Shown piece after piece: positions 23,721-33,699 of a stretch of DNA of 64,000 bases (position 1 is the stretch's first letter; each line of letters begins with the position of its first letter). The stretch comes from Methanosarcina acetivorans C2A (lineage in GTDB: Archaea; Halobacteriota; Methanosarcinia; Methanosarcinales; Methanosarcinaceae), in NCBI RefSeq assembly GCF_000007345.1, contig NC_003552.1, positions 248,001 to 312,000 of the forward strand, written 5' to 3'. A program made the translations under genes and the position numbers. The notes beneath the pieces are model-generated. The model was not told the DNA's origin. It made no database searches and worked only from the letters and a program-made list of their open reading frames with translations.

Positions 23721-23765
23721 TTGCAGAAGAAGGCAAAGCCTGAAAATTATGTAGGGAGATTTACT

Positions 23766-24872
23766 TTGAATATACTTGAAAAATTCATGAAAGATTCCAT
23801 AGGAGTTTCATCTGTCATGGGTGAGGTTCTTATTGCAGGAATTATTGTTATTGCATTTGGTTCTCTATTCGTAATTATGACTTACATTGACAAGCCGGTT
23901 GATTCTACCAGGTTGTTGGCAGAAGAATGGATAGATGCACCTTCTGACACTATTTTCCTGCGCCACGCTGGAGGGGAACCTATTGATACAAAAGACCTGA
24001 AAATCAATGTCCAAATAAATGGTACCAACTATGTATATTCCTCTTCTAATATTTCTGAAAATTTAGGCGGACAAGGCTTCTGGGAACTGGCAGATGTTAT
24101 TCAAATCGATACTATCCAGGAATGGGGTATCGGCATCGAAAATGAAGAAGGTATAGATGTAAAATTGGTTGATACGAGTTCAAAGGAAGTACTTCCTAAA
24201 TACAGAATTGGCTTCTCTCCGGAATCCTCTACTGGTTCATCTGAAGACGATCTCTCTGTAAATGATTCTGAATATGATCTACCTGAAGATCCTGTTGACT
24301 TTGAGATAATAGAAGATACAGTAGTTCCGCAGGAGGACTTTATCAGCAGTTTTACAGTTCTGGGGGCTGCAATTCAATCAGGCGGATATGATCTAAAGGT
24401 GACTACTCAATTTATAGTTGGAGATGACATTTTAGATCCCTGGCAATACTCATTGCCAGTTACCGGTAATGTTAATGATGAAGAAATACACGTATGGAAT
24501 CTTTCGGCCACTTATCCGGCAGGCACTCCTGTAACTATAAATTGCAAATCCTGGATCTGGACCAAGGATAGTAAAAAACTCTCTACAAAAGACTCAGACT
24601 GGAAGAGTTATATGGAAGTTAGTTCTTCGAGTTATTCATCGAATTTAATAGTACTCAGGAACGGAGATGCTGTCCCTACAATTCCGGGTTTGGATGAGCA
24701 GCCAGATGTTGCAGAGTTTATAGAAGACTATGTGGGGGATGGTAAGTTAGTGTTGGAAGGAAATGAGGCTATTTTCCTGTTTGAACTGGGAACAACCGAT
24801 CTTCACAGTTCTGCGGCTGATTTCCAGGACTTTGTGGTTCTGATGTCGATCGATCCAGCACCGGAAAATTAA
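23766..24872 (+). CDS. Archaeal type IV pilin, long form
   Basis: A protein of 368 residues if started at the TTG at 23766, which has a gggag Shine-Dalgarno 7 bases upstream. An earlier TTG at 23721 has none. The leader MNILEKFMKDSIG precedes the helix VSSVMGEVLIAGIIVIAFGSLFVI. The next domain (EEWIDAPSDTIFLRHAGGEP, INVQINGTNYVYSS, FWELADVIQIDTIQEWGI) is clearly homologous to the pilins at 28030 and 29044. The C-terminal half (about 190-368) differs from these and carries a beta-rich ligand-like region with WIWTKDSKK. It is probably a minor pilin with a distinct tip domain. It lies on the opposite strand to most of the locus. Confidence 0.74.
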   Translation: MNILEKFMKDSIGVSSVMGEVLIAGIIVIAFGSLFVIMTYIDKPVDSTRLLAEEWIDAPSDTIFLRHAGGEPIDTKDLKINVQINGTNYVYSSSNISENLGGQGFWELADVIQIDTIQEWGIGIENEEGIDVKLVDTSSKEVLPKYRIGFSPESSTGSSEDDLSVNDSEYDLPEDPVDFEIIEDTVVPQEDFISSFTVLGAAIQSGGYDLKVTTQFIVGDDILDPWQYSLPVTGNVNDEEIHVWNLSATYPAGTPVTINCKSWIWTKDSKKLSTKDSDWKSYMEVSSSSYSSNLIVLRNGDAVPTIPGLDEQPDVAEFIEDYVGDGKLVLEGNEAIFLFELGTTDLHSSAADFQDFVVLMSIDPAPEN

Positions 24873-27091: not shown

Positions 27092-28009
27092 TTAAATCCC
27101 CGTTTCGACTTTTATCGCGGCTTTGTAGACGTTAACGTACAGGTCTTCATCTTCAGGGGAGAGAGAAAAGGTGACTGTGTAGGTGCCGTTGGTAAGGTTG
27201 TAATCAGTACCTTCCTGAAGATCGATCTCTCCGGCTGAATTTTCGAAATATCTTTCCCATGCTTCTTGGTTTTCCGTATAGACCGTGAGGTTGACCGAGG
27301 TTATGTTGAAAAATTGTTCTATCCCTGTAAGATCGAAAAGAGGGGTAAAATATTCGGATGTAAGCCTTATGTCCTCAATGCTGTTGCTCGCCATGACCCC
27401 GCGGTTCCCATCAAGAGTTACAGCCCTTACGGAAAGATTTACCGAACCTGTATCTCTTTCAAGAACCATTCCCGGGGATAATTTCATCATCGACCTGCCG
27501 TTTCTGGATACTATGAGAGCTCCGTTTTCATAGCAATAAGTCTCGTCCACGTAATGGGTGTTTGTCGGACTGTAAGTGACCGTACCTGTGTAAAAGAGAC
27601 TTGTTCCACTGTTATACTCGGTGGTTGCATTGTCGGTCGTAACAACTATCGAAAGCCCCGATATTTCATTGTTTACAGCAAGGGTACCGCCTGTTGTTGT
27701 GCCGCCTATGAAGGGAACGTCGTTTCCTCCTACCTGGATCGGGCTGTTCAGGACAATTCTTGCATCAGGATTTATTTCAAGTCCGGCAACAAGAATATCA
27801 ACATTAGATTTAAGTCTGGACATATCCTGCCAGACGTTGGACATGTGAGCGTATTCTGCGTCTTCTTTCCAGACAGGCACGTAATTTAGCTGAATTGTTG
27901 TCATCGCGGCAACTATTATTCCTAGCAGAAGGGCTGCGGCAACGGCGGAGGAAACTCCATATTCGGAACTGCAAAAAGAAGAGATTGATTCAAAGAACCT
28001 ATTTTTCAT
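27092..28009 (-). CDS. Pilin-like protein, YVPxWKxDAE family
   Basis: A 305-residue protein beginning MKNRFFESISSFCSSEYG, then a helix (VSSAVAAALLLGIIVAAMTTI), then NYVPVWKEDAEYAHMSNVWQDMSRLKS, the signature shared with the proteins at 18357 and 20090. The domain that follows is Gly/Thr-rich and includes CYENGALIVSRNGRSMMKLSP. A good aaggga Shine-Dalgarno precedes the ATG. It is the last gene of the operon that starts with the secretion ATPase at 33699, 20 bases after the preceding pilin. It is probably a minor pilin or pilus-associated adhesin exported through this machine; that is inference from context and N-terminus. Confidence 0.74.
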   Translation of the reverse strand: MKNRFFESISSFCSSEYGVSSAVAAALLLGIIVAAMTTIQLNYVPVWKEDAEYAHMSNVWQDMSRLKSNVDILVAGLEINPDARIVLNSPIQVGGNDVPFIGGTTTGGTLAVNNEISGLSIVVTTDNATTEYNSGTSLFYTGTVTYSPTNTHYVDETYCYENGALIVSRNGRSMMKLSPGMVLERDTGSVNLSVRAVTLDGNRGVMASNSIEDIRLTSEYFTPLFDLTGIEQFFNITSVNLTVYTENQEAWERYFENSAGEIDLQEGTDYNLTNGTYTVTFSLSPEDEDLYVNVYKAAIKVETGI

Positions 28010-28029: not shown

Positions 28030-29010
28030 TTAATTTACATACAATGCCATGTAGTCAACATGGAGATTTGTGGTGTTTGCACCGGCGTTTCCCGTAGCAA
28101 CTAGCTGGATCTTTAAGTTTTCGAGATCAGTGGTGTTGTTTATATATGAGGATAAGTCCGTGGAGTAAGCTGCAAATGAGGTATGTTCAGGGAGATTCTG
28201 TTGTTGCCAGGTTCCTGAGCTTTCGTCCCATAACTTCAATTTTATTTGTTCACAGGTGTTATTGTTTCCGCTGTAGACAAGCTTCAGGGTCACAGAAGTA
28301 ATATTATCCCTCCAGAGGGCAGTACTTAATCCAAAATTAAATTCTTCATATATGTTGTCGTTTTGACTTACAGGTGGATGGTAGCTGGTATATAACCCAT
28401 CGTTTTCTTCTTGGACATGGAGGAGGATTGCTGAACCTCCCTCGGAAGTGTCAACTGCTGAGCTTTGGGGTGTATACCAGCTGGAATCCTCACTTTCTTC
28501 GGTGGAAAGTCGAAGGTTCTGGAACACTTTTCTGGAAGGCTTATCTATCAGGTATACGTTTATATCATCTTCATCTTTTATGTCGACATTCCATTCGCTG
28601 TAGGTATTGATCTCTATTTTATCTCCCAGTTCCCAGCTGCTTTTATTCCCGATATTTGCATAAATCTGGGGCGAGGAATAAGTATATCGGTTTCCATTGA
28701 TGTTTATTACAATTTCAAGGGCTTCGGTCTCGATAAATTCTCCCCCGTTGTGTTCTATGTAGATTGTATTTATCCGAGAATCTGTCCATTCTTTCACATG
28801 GGTGCGGGGTACGTCGGCAGCTCCGTCATAAGAAAATATGAAAACTGCAATTGAACTTATAAGGATTACTGCAATTGTTGTCATAAGAACCTCTCCTACA
28901 ACATCTGAAACCGCAGAGCAGTCTTTCATGAATTCTTTTATATTCGGCAAAACCGATTCCTCTCTTGAACTTTTTTTCTCTAAACCAGGTCTTTCAGAAT
29001 CAACGGTCAT
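28030..29010 (-). CDS. Archaeal type IV pilin (intact copy)
   Basis: A 326-residue protein whose N-terminal leader ends EFMKDCSA before the helix VSDVVGEVLMTTIAVILISSIAVFIF (about 33-58). Next come the shared pilin domain (EWTDSRINTIYIEHNGGEF, IVININGNRYTYSS, SWELGDKIEINTYSEWNV), a Ser-rich linker, and a C-terminal beta domain (TSVTLKLVYSGNNN, YSTDLSSYINNTTDLENLKIQLVA) as in the pilin at 21064. It lies downstream of a broken paralogue with the same architecture and may have taken over its role. No Shine-Dalgarno is obvious at the chosen ATG; an internal ATG at MKDCSA is an alternative start. Confidence 0.76.
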   Translation of the reverse strand: MTVDSERPGLEKKSSREESVLPNIKEFMKDCSAVSDVVGEVLMTTIAVILISSIAVFIFSYDGAADVPRTHVKEWTDSRINTIYIEHNGGEFIETEALEIVININGNRYTYSSPQIYANIGNKSSWELGDKIEINTYSEWNVDIKDEDDINVYLIDKPSRKVFQNLRLSTEESEDSSWYTPQSSAVDTSEGGSAILLHVQEENDGLYTSYHPPVSQNDNIYEEFNFGLSTALWRDNITSVTLKLVYSGNNNTCEQIKLKLWDESSGTWQQQNLPEHTSFAAYSTDLSSYINNTTDLENLKIQLVATGNAGANTTNLHVDYMALYVN

Positions 29011-29043
29011 TTTTTTAAAAAGTCATTCTATTCATATAGGTAT

Positions 29044-30014
29044 CTAGTCTATATATATTCTTTGATTACTATTGGTTATACAAACTTCAATTCTTATTTT
29101 AAAATTTGAAAGTTTTTCGGCATCGTGGATGTAATTGGTGATATCATAGTATTCGACATCAAAATCATCGGTTTCTTTCGGCAAATTTGTGATATAACCC
29201 CATCGATCGGGCTCGTTACTATCATAGATTTTTATTTTAATCTCTTTAGTAGCGCTATCTTTTGAGTAATATACAATTTTTAAAGTAACATTTGAAAAAA
29301 TATATCCCGGATACAATCTGTATTCTAAAGGACTGGTTTTGAAATCAAATTCTTGATATTCACTTGAATTTATTTCATCTTCTGAAGGGTGATAAGTGGT
29401 CAATTTCTATCCATTAGATCTGTATGCGGGTCCTGTACATCATCAGTTTTAGTGCTATCCACATATTTGACCTGTTCGAGGTCTCCATAGCCTCCTGAAG
29501 TATCAAGTATGTCTCCTTGTGGAGCAATTCATATTTTTAAAAGAGGTTTCCTTTCATAATTTGTCTTGAGCCTGGCCACCTGAATCGGCTTCTGTGAAGG
29601 GATGTCTATCAGAAACAATTCTACCTCATCATCATTTTTGATGTCGAGATTCCACTCCCTTCTCGCATCTATTGTCAGGACGTCCCCAAGTTCCCAGACG
29701 CTTTTGTTCCCCAGACATTCGTAAATGTCTTCCGATGGATACACATACTTTTCTCCGTTGACATTAAGTACGATCTCACATTTTTCCGTGTCAAGGAATT
29801 CCCCTCCGCTATGTTTCAGATAAATTGTATCCGCGGATTTGTTTATCCACTCCTGCAGTCTTGTATGAGGGATATCGTCAGGTCCGTCCAGGGAAAAAAT
29901 GGATATGCTGAGGATGCTGAGCATGATAATTACTACACTTGTAAGAAGTACAACGCCCGTTACTTCTGAAACTGCAGCCTCTTTTGTGGTGTCTGTTCCG
30001 GGAGTTTCTTGCAT
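29044..30014 (-). pseudogene. Type IV pilin gene broken by TGA and a frameshift
   Basis: The 161-codon 5' part (from 30014) has a normal pilin helix (AAVSEVTGVVLLTSVVIIMLS) and pilin domain (YLKHSGGEF, VWELGDVLTIDARREWNL). It ends at an in-frame TGA at 29529-29531. Beyond it the same frame continues with 41 sensible codons (IAPQGDILDTSGGYGD) that match the linker of the intact neighbour, then meets a TGA at 29400-29402. The C-terminal beta domain (TTYHPSEDE, SNVTLKIVYYSKDS, YYDITNYIHDAEKLSNFKIRIE) lies in another frame, entered near the aaattg at about 29401-29406. One stop and one single-base shift would restore a product of about 320 residues. TGA is not the pyrrolysine codon. Confidence 0.8.
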
Positions 30015-30023
30015 AAAAACATC

Positions 30024-32012
30024 TTAAACGAACATCGTAAAGACTGCATAGGCAATTATCATCATGCTGACGCTGTATTTCAGGCCCATATATACCGAAC
30101 CCTGACCCATCTTCCCGGCAATGAGCCCGGAGGTAAAAGCCTGAACAAGGGCTGAGTGGTACATGAGCATAGAATACTCATCTATGTTGAAATAACCGTT
30201 TCCGATTCCTCCGTATCCCATTCCCTGAGAAGAATTTTTAAATGAGGCACTTTCAGGGAAAAAGTATACGGCCAATATATAAACTATGAAAAGGAAGACA
30301 AAGAAGGCAACGTAGATGGTGACGACGTAAACAACCATCTCCGAAGAACGTTCTTCTTTCAACCTTTCTTCGCTCTTTACCTGTTCTGCGGTAATAGAAA
30401 GCACATTTTTGATGTCGCTTGTGGACTCGTTTGCTTTTATGAGAGTATGGAGAACCCGGCTGGATGTTGCGGTCCTTATGTTGTTTTCCAGTTTCATAAG
30501 GGCTCTTGAAGTTGAATTTCCCCATGAGAGGTCTTCTTTTAGCTTTTTGAGTTCTTTACTGAGGATTCCCATCTTGGATTCTGCCATTATTTTTAAGGAA
30601 TTAGAGAGCAGAATCCCTGAATCGTTCATGCTTGACAGGTTTCTCAGCAGGTCAGGCATTCTTTCATCAATCTTTCGCATCCTCCATGCCCTTATTTCGT
30701 AAAATATAATGAAGGGGATGAGTGCGATTACGGTGAAAATGACCAGGTAATCGTCAATAGAGCTTATTAACTGGACACTGCTGTCACTGATATGGGCAAA
30801 GTTAAGGTTCCAGTGGAAACTATAATTAAGGCTTTCTTTAAGAGTTTTCGGAAGGTGGATAAGATAATAAAGCCCGAGAGGGACTCCGAAAAAGAAGGTA
30901 TATCTGGGTTCGTCGCGGATAGTTTTGTACGGGTTAAAAACCAGGTCTCTCATATTGTAAAGCTGCCTGTACAGTTTTAACTTTTTGTTCCTCTTCTCCT
31001 CCTCTTCTGCACTGAGCTTGGAGCTGAGTTCCGGGATATCGTAAAGGTTTATGGGGTACCTGGGAACCCTGCTCTTTTCCGGACTCATGGAGAGTTCTCC
31101 TACTGTATCGAGAAGCACGATAAAGAGCAGGGTTGCAAGGGGTATTATAACATAAATCAGCATGTAAAGGATCTGGGCTGAAGCCGGCTTGAGAAACTGC
31201 AGCACTACAAGGGTTGTCATTATGAATAACGGACCTGCAACAAAGGCAGTTACATAAACTTCTGCAAGGACGTCCAGCCTCTTTAACAGGTTGCGGTTTG
31301 CAAGATCCGCCATCTCCTGGTACTGCTCGGATTTATTTTTCATGTACTCGGTTATGGTCCCACCGCTTGAAACAAGGATCAGGCCGTCAACAAAATCCTT
31401 GAAACGTTCCGAAGGGGTGCGTTCCTTTGCTTCTTTAAGGGCCGTTATAAAGTCCTTTCCCAGATAGTCCATATCCCGCACAATATAGGAGATTTCTTCC
31501 GCGCTTGTGCCAAAGATATGGGTATAACTGCTAAGAGACCTGAATACATCATAAATTGACATGCCTCCCTTGGTCAGGGCATACATGTAAGTTACCGCTG
31601 GCAGCATGGACTTATCTATACAGGCGTTCCGGATATCTGCCTGGAAATAAGGGTAGATGTATATCATCCCAAAGACGACAAGAAAACTTATAATGAATAA
31701 CAAAAGGGCGACTAATATCGCAAGCAAATAAAGGTATTCTTCTGCAAAACATGCCCTTGTGGAATCCACAAAAAGGCTGAGGCGGGAGATCGGGTCTCCG
31801 AAAGTCTTAAGTCCTAGCCATAATCCGAAGATCCCTCCTATTATACCTGCGAAGAGTGAGTACATGAAGGCTGATGCCAGGTACTGATCCACTGACTTTG
31901 GAATATGGGAGTGGCGTATCTTTATTTTGATCTCCTTGAAACTTTCTTTATTTTTATAAAAAAAGTCTCCAAAAGCTCTGTATGCCAGTTCGTCCACGGA
32001 AGTGTAAGTCAT
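30024..32012 (-). CDS. Pilus assembly platform protein (TadC/FlaJ-like, two T2SSF domains)
   Basis: The polytopic membrane platform on which the secretion ATPase acts. The 662-residue protein holds two T2SSF-type units. The first runs from helices at about 48-70 and 108-140 through the cytoplasmic EEISYIVRDMDYLGKDFITALKEAKERTPSERFKDFVDGLI to helices at about 255-300. The second starts with helices near 370 and 425, then MPDLLRNLSSMNDSGILLSNSLKIMAES, then three helices at the C-terminus (about 555-660). Duplicated T2SSF domains are the usual archaeal arrangement. It starts 10 bases after the ATPase stop with a gggag Shine-Dalgarno and is followed 9 bases later by the broken pilin. Confidence 0.88.
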   Translation of the reverse strand: MTYTSVDELAYRAFGDFFYKNKESFKEIKIKIRHSHIPKSVDQYLASAFMYSLFAGIIGGIFGLWLGLKTFGDPISRLSLFVDSTRACFAEEYLYLLAILVALLLFIISFLVVFGMIYIYPYFQADIRNACIDKSMLPAVTYMYALTKGGMSIYDVFRSLSSYTHIFGTSAEEISYIVRDMDYLGKDFITALKEAKERTPSERFKDFVDGLILVSSGGTITEYMKNKSEQYQEMADLANRNLLKRLDVLAEVYVTAFVAGPLFIMTTLVVLQFLKPASAQILYMLIYVIIPLATLLFIVLLDTVGELSMSPEKSRVPRYPINLYDIPELSSKLSAEEEEKRNKKLKLYRQLYNMRDLVFNPYKTIRDEPRYTFFFGVPLGLYYLIHLPKTLKESLNYSFHWNLNFAHISDSSVQLISSIDDYLVIFTVIALIPFIIFYEIRAWRMRKIDERMPDLLRNLSSMNDSGILLSNSLKIMAESKMGILSKELKKLKEDLSWGNSTSRALMKLENNIRTATSSRVLHTLIKANESTSDIKNVLSITAEQVKSEERLKEERSSEMVVYVVTIYVAFFVFLFIVYILAVYFFPESASFKNSSQGMGYGGIGNGYFNIDEYSMLMYHSALVQAFTSGLIAGKMGQGSVYMGLKYSVSMMIIAYAVFTMFV

Positions 32013-32022
32013 GCTCTCCCTC

Positions 32023-33699
32023 TTACGCGACCATGTCCTGTATCATAGTTTGCAGGGTATCGTTTTCTATAGATTCCAGAACCATTTTCGGATAACTCTG
32101 ATATGTCTGCACTACAAGAGATACCTGGATGTAGCTCCTCATATTCTTCTCATAGAGGTAAGTGAGGATCTTTCTCCGATTCTCGATTTCACTTCTCAAC
32201 TGGACTGTATCCCATCCTCTGACGTGCATGATCTCCTGCATGAGATAGGAGTCCCCAACTTTCAGGAAACTGTCTTTAAAAGGCTCCCAGTTGAAAAGCT
32301 CGTTTATGCCAAGGTCTTCGGTTTCAGGGTCAACGTTAAGGACTTCCACAAGGCTCCTTGTCCTCCTTACCCTTTTCTCTTCGATGTACACCTGTTCCTG
32401 AATACAGAGTACGTCAAGAGACTGCAGCATAAGCTTAGGTACATTTATGGGTTCGTGGGTAAGCCTGTTTATAACGGTCTGCATATCTCCTGCATGCATT
32501 GTCGAGCTTGTTGCATGTCCTGTTGACATTGCCTGGAAAAGCATAAGAGCTTCACTGCCTCTGACTTCACCTACAATGATGAAATCAGGACGCTGTCTCA
32601 GGGCTGCCCTTAAAAGGTCGAACATGGAAACTTCCCCGGTAGCGTCCGAGGCAAAGCTTTCTCTTGCAATACCCGAGACCCAGTTGTTGTGGTAGAGTAA
32701 GAGTTCCCTTGTATCTTCTATAGAGACTATCTTGGCTGTGGAAGGCATGAAAAGGGACGTTGCGTTAAGCATTGAGGTTTTTCCTGAAGCCGTCCCTCCT
32801 GCAAAAAGCATATTGTAGCCGTTTTCAATGACCAGCCAGAGGTATACCAGCATTTCCATATCGCACGTCTTAAAACCTAGCAGGTCGATAGGCGTTATCG
32901 GGTCTTTTCTGAACTTACGGATGGTAAACGAACTGCCGCGAGGAGTGATTTCTCTCCCTAACATAGCCTGAAGCCTTGACCCGTCCTGGATTGTCGCATC
33001 AACGATTGGCTGGCTGACAGAGATATGTTTGTTATTCAGCTGGCACATCTTGATTACGAGGGAGTCGAGTTCTTCCTCTTCAAAAGAAATATTACTTTCA
33101 ATGTTGAGATACCTCGTATGATAAATATAGAGCGGAATTCCGACACCATCGCATGATATGTCTTCAATATAAGGATCATAAAGAAGAGGATTGATTTTTT
33201 CATAACCAAGCAGGTTCCTTCTGAGGTAATACATTATCCTGTGAATGGCTGAGGACGAAGCTTCAGCTTTGTAACGTTCAAGAAGTAAAAGGGTTTTGTC
33301 CACAAGGAGCGCGTCTTTTTCTATTTTAGATGTTGTGGAGTTCAAAATCAGGATGTCCTGAAAATCCTCATAAATTCTTTCAAGCAACTCCTTCTCAAAT
33401 TTTGTAAGGGCAGGTTCAATAAGCTTGTAGTACCTTGTTCTGCGATCTTCGAGGATGGACACAAGAGCATAAGGCTCCTGGAGCCAGTACCTTTCTATTT
33501 CCTTCATTCCTTCAGGTACTTCAAACTCTACAAGCGGTCCATATTCTTCCCGGTCGTATGGCGGCATACTTCTCAAAGGCTTATCAAAATAACTTTTAGC
33601 CCTTTTCAGAATATCTGAAATGGAGTTATTATCGCCTGTTTTCCCGAATAACCCCGAAATAAAACTTTTCTTTTCCGAGATTTCTGTTACTTCATCCAT
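32023..33699 (-). CDS. Type II/IV secretion ATPase (PilB/TadA/FlaI superfamily)
   Basis: The motor that powers pilus assembly at the cytoplasmic face. The 558-residue protein has an N-terminal region (about 50-200) with DPYIEDISCDGVGIPLYIYH, typical of archaeal secretion ATPases, then the catalytic domain. Walker A is GGTASGKT at about 301-308, followed by the Asp box VSIEDTREL, Walker B-like DFIIVGEVRGSEA and the His box STMHAGDM. A gaagg Shine-Dalgarno precedes the ATG. It heads the minus-strand operon running through the platform protein and three pilin-type genes. The TA-rich region at 33750-33800 probably holds its promoter. Archaellum motor FlaI is excluded by the lack of any archaellum gene nearby, though not by sequence alone. 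Confidence 0.92.
   Translation of the reverse strand: MDEVTEISEKKSFISGLFGKTGDNNSISDILKRAKSYFDKPLRSMPPYDREEYGPLVEFEVPEGMKEIERYWLQEPYALVSILEDRRTRYYKLIEPALTKFEKELLERIYEDFQDILILNSTTSKIEKDALLVDKTLLLLERYKAEASSSAIHRIMYYLRRNLLGYEKINPLLYDPYIEDISCDGVGIPLYIYHTRYLNIESNISFEEEELDSLVIKMCQLNNKHISVSQPIVDATIQDGSRLQAMLGREITPRGSSFTIRKFRKDPITPIDLLGFKTCDMEMLVYLWLVIENGYNMLFAGGTASGKTSMLNATSLFMPSTAKIVSIEDTRELLLYHNNWVSGIARESFASDATGEVSMFDLLRAALRQRPDFIIVGEVRGSEALMLFQAMSTGHATSSTMHAGDMQTVINRLTHEPINVPKLMLQSLDVLCIQEQVYIEEKRVRRTRSLVEVLNVDPETEDLGINELFNWEPFKDSFLKVGDSYLMQEIMHVRGWDTVQLRSEIENRRKILTYLYEKNMRSYIQVSLVVQTYQSYPKMVLESIENDTLQTMIQDMVA

Follow-up and report, generated by a model that had tools for sequence, protein, structure and literature searches.

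In Neisseria gonorrhoeae, the pilin PilE retains function after being shortened by a nonsense change, according to the study describing it (PMC4877100). For Methanosarcina acetivorans, a readthrough screen yielded four TAG genes; the word pilin is absent from the available text of that report, and the design of the screen misses species-specific cases (PMC1914089). Among the literature matches listed there was no title on the gene described here or on pilin truncation in Methanosarcina. The gene, termed pilin A, lies next to a paralogue, pilin B, in an operon that recurs in related genomes. The new point is a comparative one: pilin A of M. acetivorans C2A is shortened at the boundary where the neighbouring pilin B was shortened in 8 of 12 other operons.

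The genome of M. acetivorans C2A consists of one contig of 5,751,492 bases. The whole stretch of DNA that was analysed (64,000 nucleotides, bases 248001–312000 of the contig) is referred to as the window, and positions are given relative to its first base. Pilin A occupies the minus strand from 30014 to about 29023, with the ancestral end placed by alignment to relatives. The proximal part (29532..30014, minus strand) is intact and encodes the N-terminal helix and the first beta domain, 161 aa in total; it matches the Pilin_N family (PF07790) with an E-value of 3.5e-22 and a score of 79.5 bits, against a curated cut-off of 25.2, and pilin A was also recovered in a genome scan with this family. 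Directly upstream lie large ORFs whose sequences fit a multi-pass membrane platform protein of the FlaJ/TadC type (30024..32012, minus strand) and a secretion ATPase of the FlaI/TadA type (32023..33699, minus strand), both named by eye and by their place. On the other side lie pilin B (28030..29010, minus strand), an intact two-domain paralogue of 326 aa (Pilin_N, E 3.5e-23), and, next in the cluster, a DUF7289 pilin-like gene (27092..28009, minus strand; PF23960, E 2.6e-13). Pilin A is by origin a two-domain archaeal type IV pilin, clustered with the putative secretion ATPase, the putative platform protein and pilin B. A TATA-like stretch at 29045–29058 on the minus strand, roughly 40 bases upstream of the pilin B start and inside the decayed end of pilin A, might act as a promoter of pilin B; such a stretch easily arises by chance in AT-rich DNA.

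The reading frame of pilin A is disrupted at four places. The proximal ORF (29529–30014, minus strand, 161 aa) closes at a TGA in the inter-domain linker (lesion 1; 29529..29531, minus strand), a site that holds Trp in seven and Cys in one of ten other A rows compared. Reading frame and alignment identify the following 42 codons as a remnant of the linker (29403..29528, minus strand), in which the first frame is retained and stays open up to a TGA at 29400–29402. A remnant of the C-terminal beta domain (29047..29403, minus strand; 60% identity to the A copy of Methanosarcina sp. UBA10923) follows in another frame, within an ORF of 119 aa (29044–29403) that is entered by a one-base frame change at aaattg, 29406–29401 (lesion 2; 29401..29406, minus strand; located by reading frame and alignment). 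This ORF ends in a TAG (lesion 3; 29044..29046, minus strand) at a Tyr site, with IDY or VDY in 9/9 intact A copies. A TGA (lesion 4; 29032..29034, minus strand) occupies the site four residues past this Tyr, which is Trp in eight of the nine intact copies and Ser in the remaining one (G008). Four of the nine end two residues after the Trp site and the other five extend slightly; from the alignment of the A tails, a further TGA (29023..29025, minus strand) lies near the natural stop of the shortest-ended relatives. The window reads ID*IPI*IE* at this C-terminal motif, where it differs at several codons besides the stops. As the intact copies run past 29044, the TAG at 29044–29046 and the TGA at 29032–29034 represent two extra lesions. 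In total, pilin A has three stops and one shift. All fall between 29531 and 29032, and the preceding 483 bases are clean; relative to the intact orthologues, the disabling changes are several in number and confined to the distal half, the proximal 161 codons being unaffected. The G+C content is 0.29 for the distal piece, 0.43 for the proximal part and 0.34 for the C part of the UBA10923 copy.

Both pieces were covered in a tblastn search with the intact UBA10923 copy (L032), with 60% identity each and an E-value of 1e-101 for the pair, and they are 45% and 33% identical to the neighbour at 28030. As the two pieces align to one intact protein and also to pilin B, chance is excluded. The last residue before lesion 1 aligns to residue 177 of pilin B, of which residue 178 is a Trp. 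A profile of the C-terminal domain includes the window's own remnant, so that its match there (E 2e-47) arises partly by construction and was not used as evidence; in this match, one of the three counted stops precedes the shift and is out of frame. A separate start of the C-terminal frame (TTG 29403) was set aside because its product would be without a signal helix. The in-frame TGA at 29529–29531, described in a first-pass annotation of this DNA, is confirmed by ORF reading and by alignment to intact relatives, as are the one-base shift near 29401–29406 with the C-terminal domain in another frame and the alignment of the parts with the intact neighbour. The frame past the TGA is open as claimed, over 42 rather than 41 codons. 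The statement that only two changes break the gene has to be replaced by a count of four, including the TAG and the TGA in the conserved C-terminal motif, and the gene end had been set too early, at the TAG: nine intact A copies continue beyond this site, to an ancestral end at about 29023.

The distribution of long and short pilins was determined in related operons. When the 161-aa part was searched against 30 genomes of the genus, among them that of the window, 28 gave matches; stretches were taken from nine relatives whose matches resembled the A/B operon, and the remaining genomes were judged from the list of matches only. All nine relatives carry a long A; a short B is present in eight (G006, G007, G008, G009, G010, G019, G022 and G024; 155–197 aa from stop to stop), and B is long only in strain KYL-1 (G021). 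A scan of genome contigs gave no match with a single-protein query and nine loci with an alignment as query, six of these on contigs already covered and three new (L053, L055 and L057), with A and B both long in all three. Counting the window, 13 operons were compared: A is long and B short in eight, both are long in four, A is short and B long in one (the window), and both are short in none. A is long in 12/12 other operons and broken in the window alone; B is short in 8/13 and long in 5/13 operons. The absence of operons with two short copies is not significant as a sign of reciprocity, about 0.6 being expected among 13 operons (calculated by hand). The copy number in UBA10923 is uncertain because further A-like pieces are present at two contig ends (L033; L032 9035–9394). 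A second cluster (L032, L034, L036 and L038) contains adjoining short (162–169 aa) and long (330–339 aa) pilins; long/short pairs thus occur elsewhere in the same genomes too. One short second-cluster pilin (L037 6319–6715) is interrupted within its pilin domain; a tandem FTRK-like repeat precedes its signal region.

The nine shortened products (A in the window and the eight B) all end opposite residues 170–183 of the window's intact pilin B. An AlphaFold2 model of pilin B (mean pLDDT 60.6, built from four rows only) has a helix at residues 21–59, a first beta domain extending to residue 168, a low-confidence stretch at 169–203 and then a second beta domain. On this model, the shortened ends are predicted to fall in the linker that follows the pilin domain, immediately past the final strand of the first beta domain. 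In fold comparisons, intact pilin B matched best to the Haloferax volcanii pilus subunit 8fj5 (133 residues), with an E-value of 1.2e-5, a target TM-score of 0.56 and an rmsd of 12.1. In size, the retained 161-aa part of pilin A corresponds to known one-domain archaeal pilins. For the C-terminal domain, no sequence match was found in the PDB and the fold matches are weak; in Pfam, the first member gave no match over the cut-off, and no family was matched at E < 1 by more than one of the 14 members.

Behind the stop of short B, tblastn detected C-domain remnants in G010 (E 4e-17) and G024 (E 5e-6). For G009 the match (E 0.003) scores in the range of two chance hits to the gene that follows (0.008 and 0.015); its remnant occupies the same position as the G010 one, however, and both can be aligned base for base (155/175 identical). 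The match in G022 had an E-value of 0.18, pieces in G007, G008 and G019 were recognized by eye, and G006 retains only 33 bases ahead of the following gene. Four genome pairs have remnants of different kinds: in G007/G022 there is a stop and the linker is kept, in G009/G010 the linker is lost and the end is kept, and in G008/G024 the last residues alone are left; G006/G019 form the fourth pair. Together with A in the window, these kinds represent up to five truncation events. A pilin-domain tree built from 23 rows, which leave out L053, L055 and L057, requires four changes of the label 'short', two of them forced by well-supported branches. These comparisons give a range of two to five separate shortening events. 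In G010, a relative of another window pilin (23721–24872) is spread over three frames (L045 5569–6665), with the first break just past the pilin domain; this third pilin type is likewise broken at the pilin-domain boundary. At G005:C1:2150808-2151828, a frame of 230 aa has a Pilin_N match and a subsequent frame of 157 aa a C-domain match, perhaps another split two-domain pilin.

Of the four short-B pairs, G010/G009 and G022/G007 plainly share a truncation. The amino-acid changes in G010/G009 are below the neutral level, with 5 and 33 of 2000 simulations as low under two mutation biases; G022/G007 is borderline (89 and 175 of 2000). For G006/G019 and G024/G008, 0 and 0 of 2000 neutral simulations were as low; these pairs end at different codons, and part of the constraint may therefore predate the truncation. 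Comparison pairs of long A copies gave 0/1 and 0/4 of 2000 neutral simulations as low. The substitution patterns point to purifying selection on short B, clear in G010/G009 and borderline in G022/G007. Compared with the coding part, the DNA after the stop evolved faster in G022/G007 (Fisher 0.02) and in G006/G019 (Fisher 0.01; 33 aligned bases only); no difference was seen in G010/G009 (0.89), where the next-start rule limited the G010 remnant to 185 bases, or in G024/G008 (0.81). The proximal part of pilin A is 62% identical to UBA10923 A over 142 codons, with a dN/dS of 0.18 at a dS of 1.44; the distal part has a dN/dS of 0.21, and with dS > 1.3 these ratios are rough. A relative-rate count with four outgroups gave no significant excess of the distal over the proximal half (Fisher 0.53 to 1.0); with G021 as the outgroup the distal counts lean toward an excess (11 vs 5). 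The similar rates of the two halves indicate that the break is young, and the test does not discriminate between a young dead gene and a young domain loss.

The first-pass annotation had allowed for expression controlled by recoding and for a sequencing error. Production of full-length pilin A by readthrough and frameshifting under some conditions would fit the good preservation of both pieces (pairwise dN/dS near 0.2 each), but these low values mostly reflect the time before the break, and the scheme demands one readthrough, a frame change and then two more readthroughs. The stops are found at the same places in none of the A copies of the 12 other operons, no slippery heptamer was seen at the shift by inspection, and the TGA codons of lesions 1 and 4 stand at sites that are mostly Trp (7/10 and 8/9) rather than Cys or Sec. 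SepSecS (TIGR03531) had no match in the own genome, with control matches in Methanocaldococcus jannaschii. A tRNA-Sec search gave four matches in the own genome, 0/4 over the family cut-off; as the search was positive in all 14 control genomes, mostly below the cut-off and over it in five, weak matches carry no meaning. Recoding by selenocysteine or frameshifting was rejected on the multiple lesions, the lack of a slippery heptamer and of SepSecS, and the sub-cut-off tRNA-Sec matches, and we regard full-length expression as hardly conceivable. Errors of sequencing or assembly in an intact pilin A are very improbable too: the lesions were read from one assembly, but four errors would have to fall close together, placing a shift and three stops in some 510 bases next to 483 clean ones, and the C-terminal motif is changed at several codons beyond the stops.

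The explanation that we consider probable is that pilin A recently became a one-domain pilin, with the discarded C-terminal domain decaying and the short product in use. The stop in the linker would cut pilin A to the pilin domain alone (161 aa; no order of lesions is implied), and the C-terminal domain, being untranslated, would decay through the frame change and two more stops. We infer production and use of the 161-aa protein, which would be processed and built into the filament as a one-domain pilin, with B supplying the operon's two-domain subunit in the window, as A presumably does in most relatives examined. The lesions (read in one strain of the species), their distal confinement, the intact copies in relatives and the parallel shortening of B at the boundary where A ends are direct observations. 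Use of the short A product appears the likelier case from the sequence comparisons, because B was shortened likewise on more than one occasion and the short B stayed open, under selection in at least one pair. It is unlikely, to a much lesser degree than the errors and recoding discussed above, that pilin A is wholly a young pseudogene in which the proximal frame is open only through shortness of time. The distal half is 60% identical to the UBA10923 copy without a significant rate excess, as expected for a young loss, and an intact two-domain B remains; as the distal half is not significantly faster than the proximal one, the latter might have died too recently to have collected lesions. Every lesion is distal, however, which in a wholly dead gene would have a chance of about 0.07 (by hand, 509/992 bases), so that the clean proximal half is weak evidence alone; against the pseudogene stand also the recurrence of the boundary in B and the selection on short B in at least one pair sharing a truncation. 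The earlier proposal of a recent loss is supported for the distal half, which has intact copies in relatives and no significant rate excess; the proximal domain is intact. Loss in all relatives had been named as the mark of an old pseudogene; with A long in 12/12 other operons examined, the loss is not old.

If the reading of pilin A as a recent one-domain pilin is correct, the apparently broken gene likely represents a domain loss with a retained half, and a plain pseudogene annotation of such genes may hide working short pilins. Natural long/short pilin pairs provide material to test the role of the second domain of archaeal pilins. More tentatively, two-domain pilins of the genus may repeatedly and adaptively have been turned into one-domain pilins by linker stops or deletions; the operon could then swap which paralogue carries the outward-facing domain, and the window would represent an early stage of such a swap.

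Compared with known systems, the retained domain of pilin A resembles the Pilin_N archaeal type IV pilins, such as that of H. volcanii (8fj5), and scores well above the family cut-off. Unlike these pilins, A and B are two-domain proteins by origin, and A has lost its second domain. Like PilE of N. gonorrhoeae (PMC4877100), pilin A appears to be shortened by a nonsense change with the N-terminal part kept. PilE differs in being bacterial; according to that study, residues 1–38 are enough, and what is preserved is transformation in the absence of extended pili. PilE would serve as an analogy, A not being a member of that system. A further likeness is to the short B of the Methanosarcina relatives (L032, L034, L035 and L037–L041), which end at the same boundary with the pilin domain intact and, in most cases, have C-domain remnants behind the stop, as in A. 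In those operons B is short and A is long, whereas in the window the roles are swapped and the lost domain is more readable.
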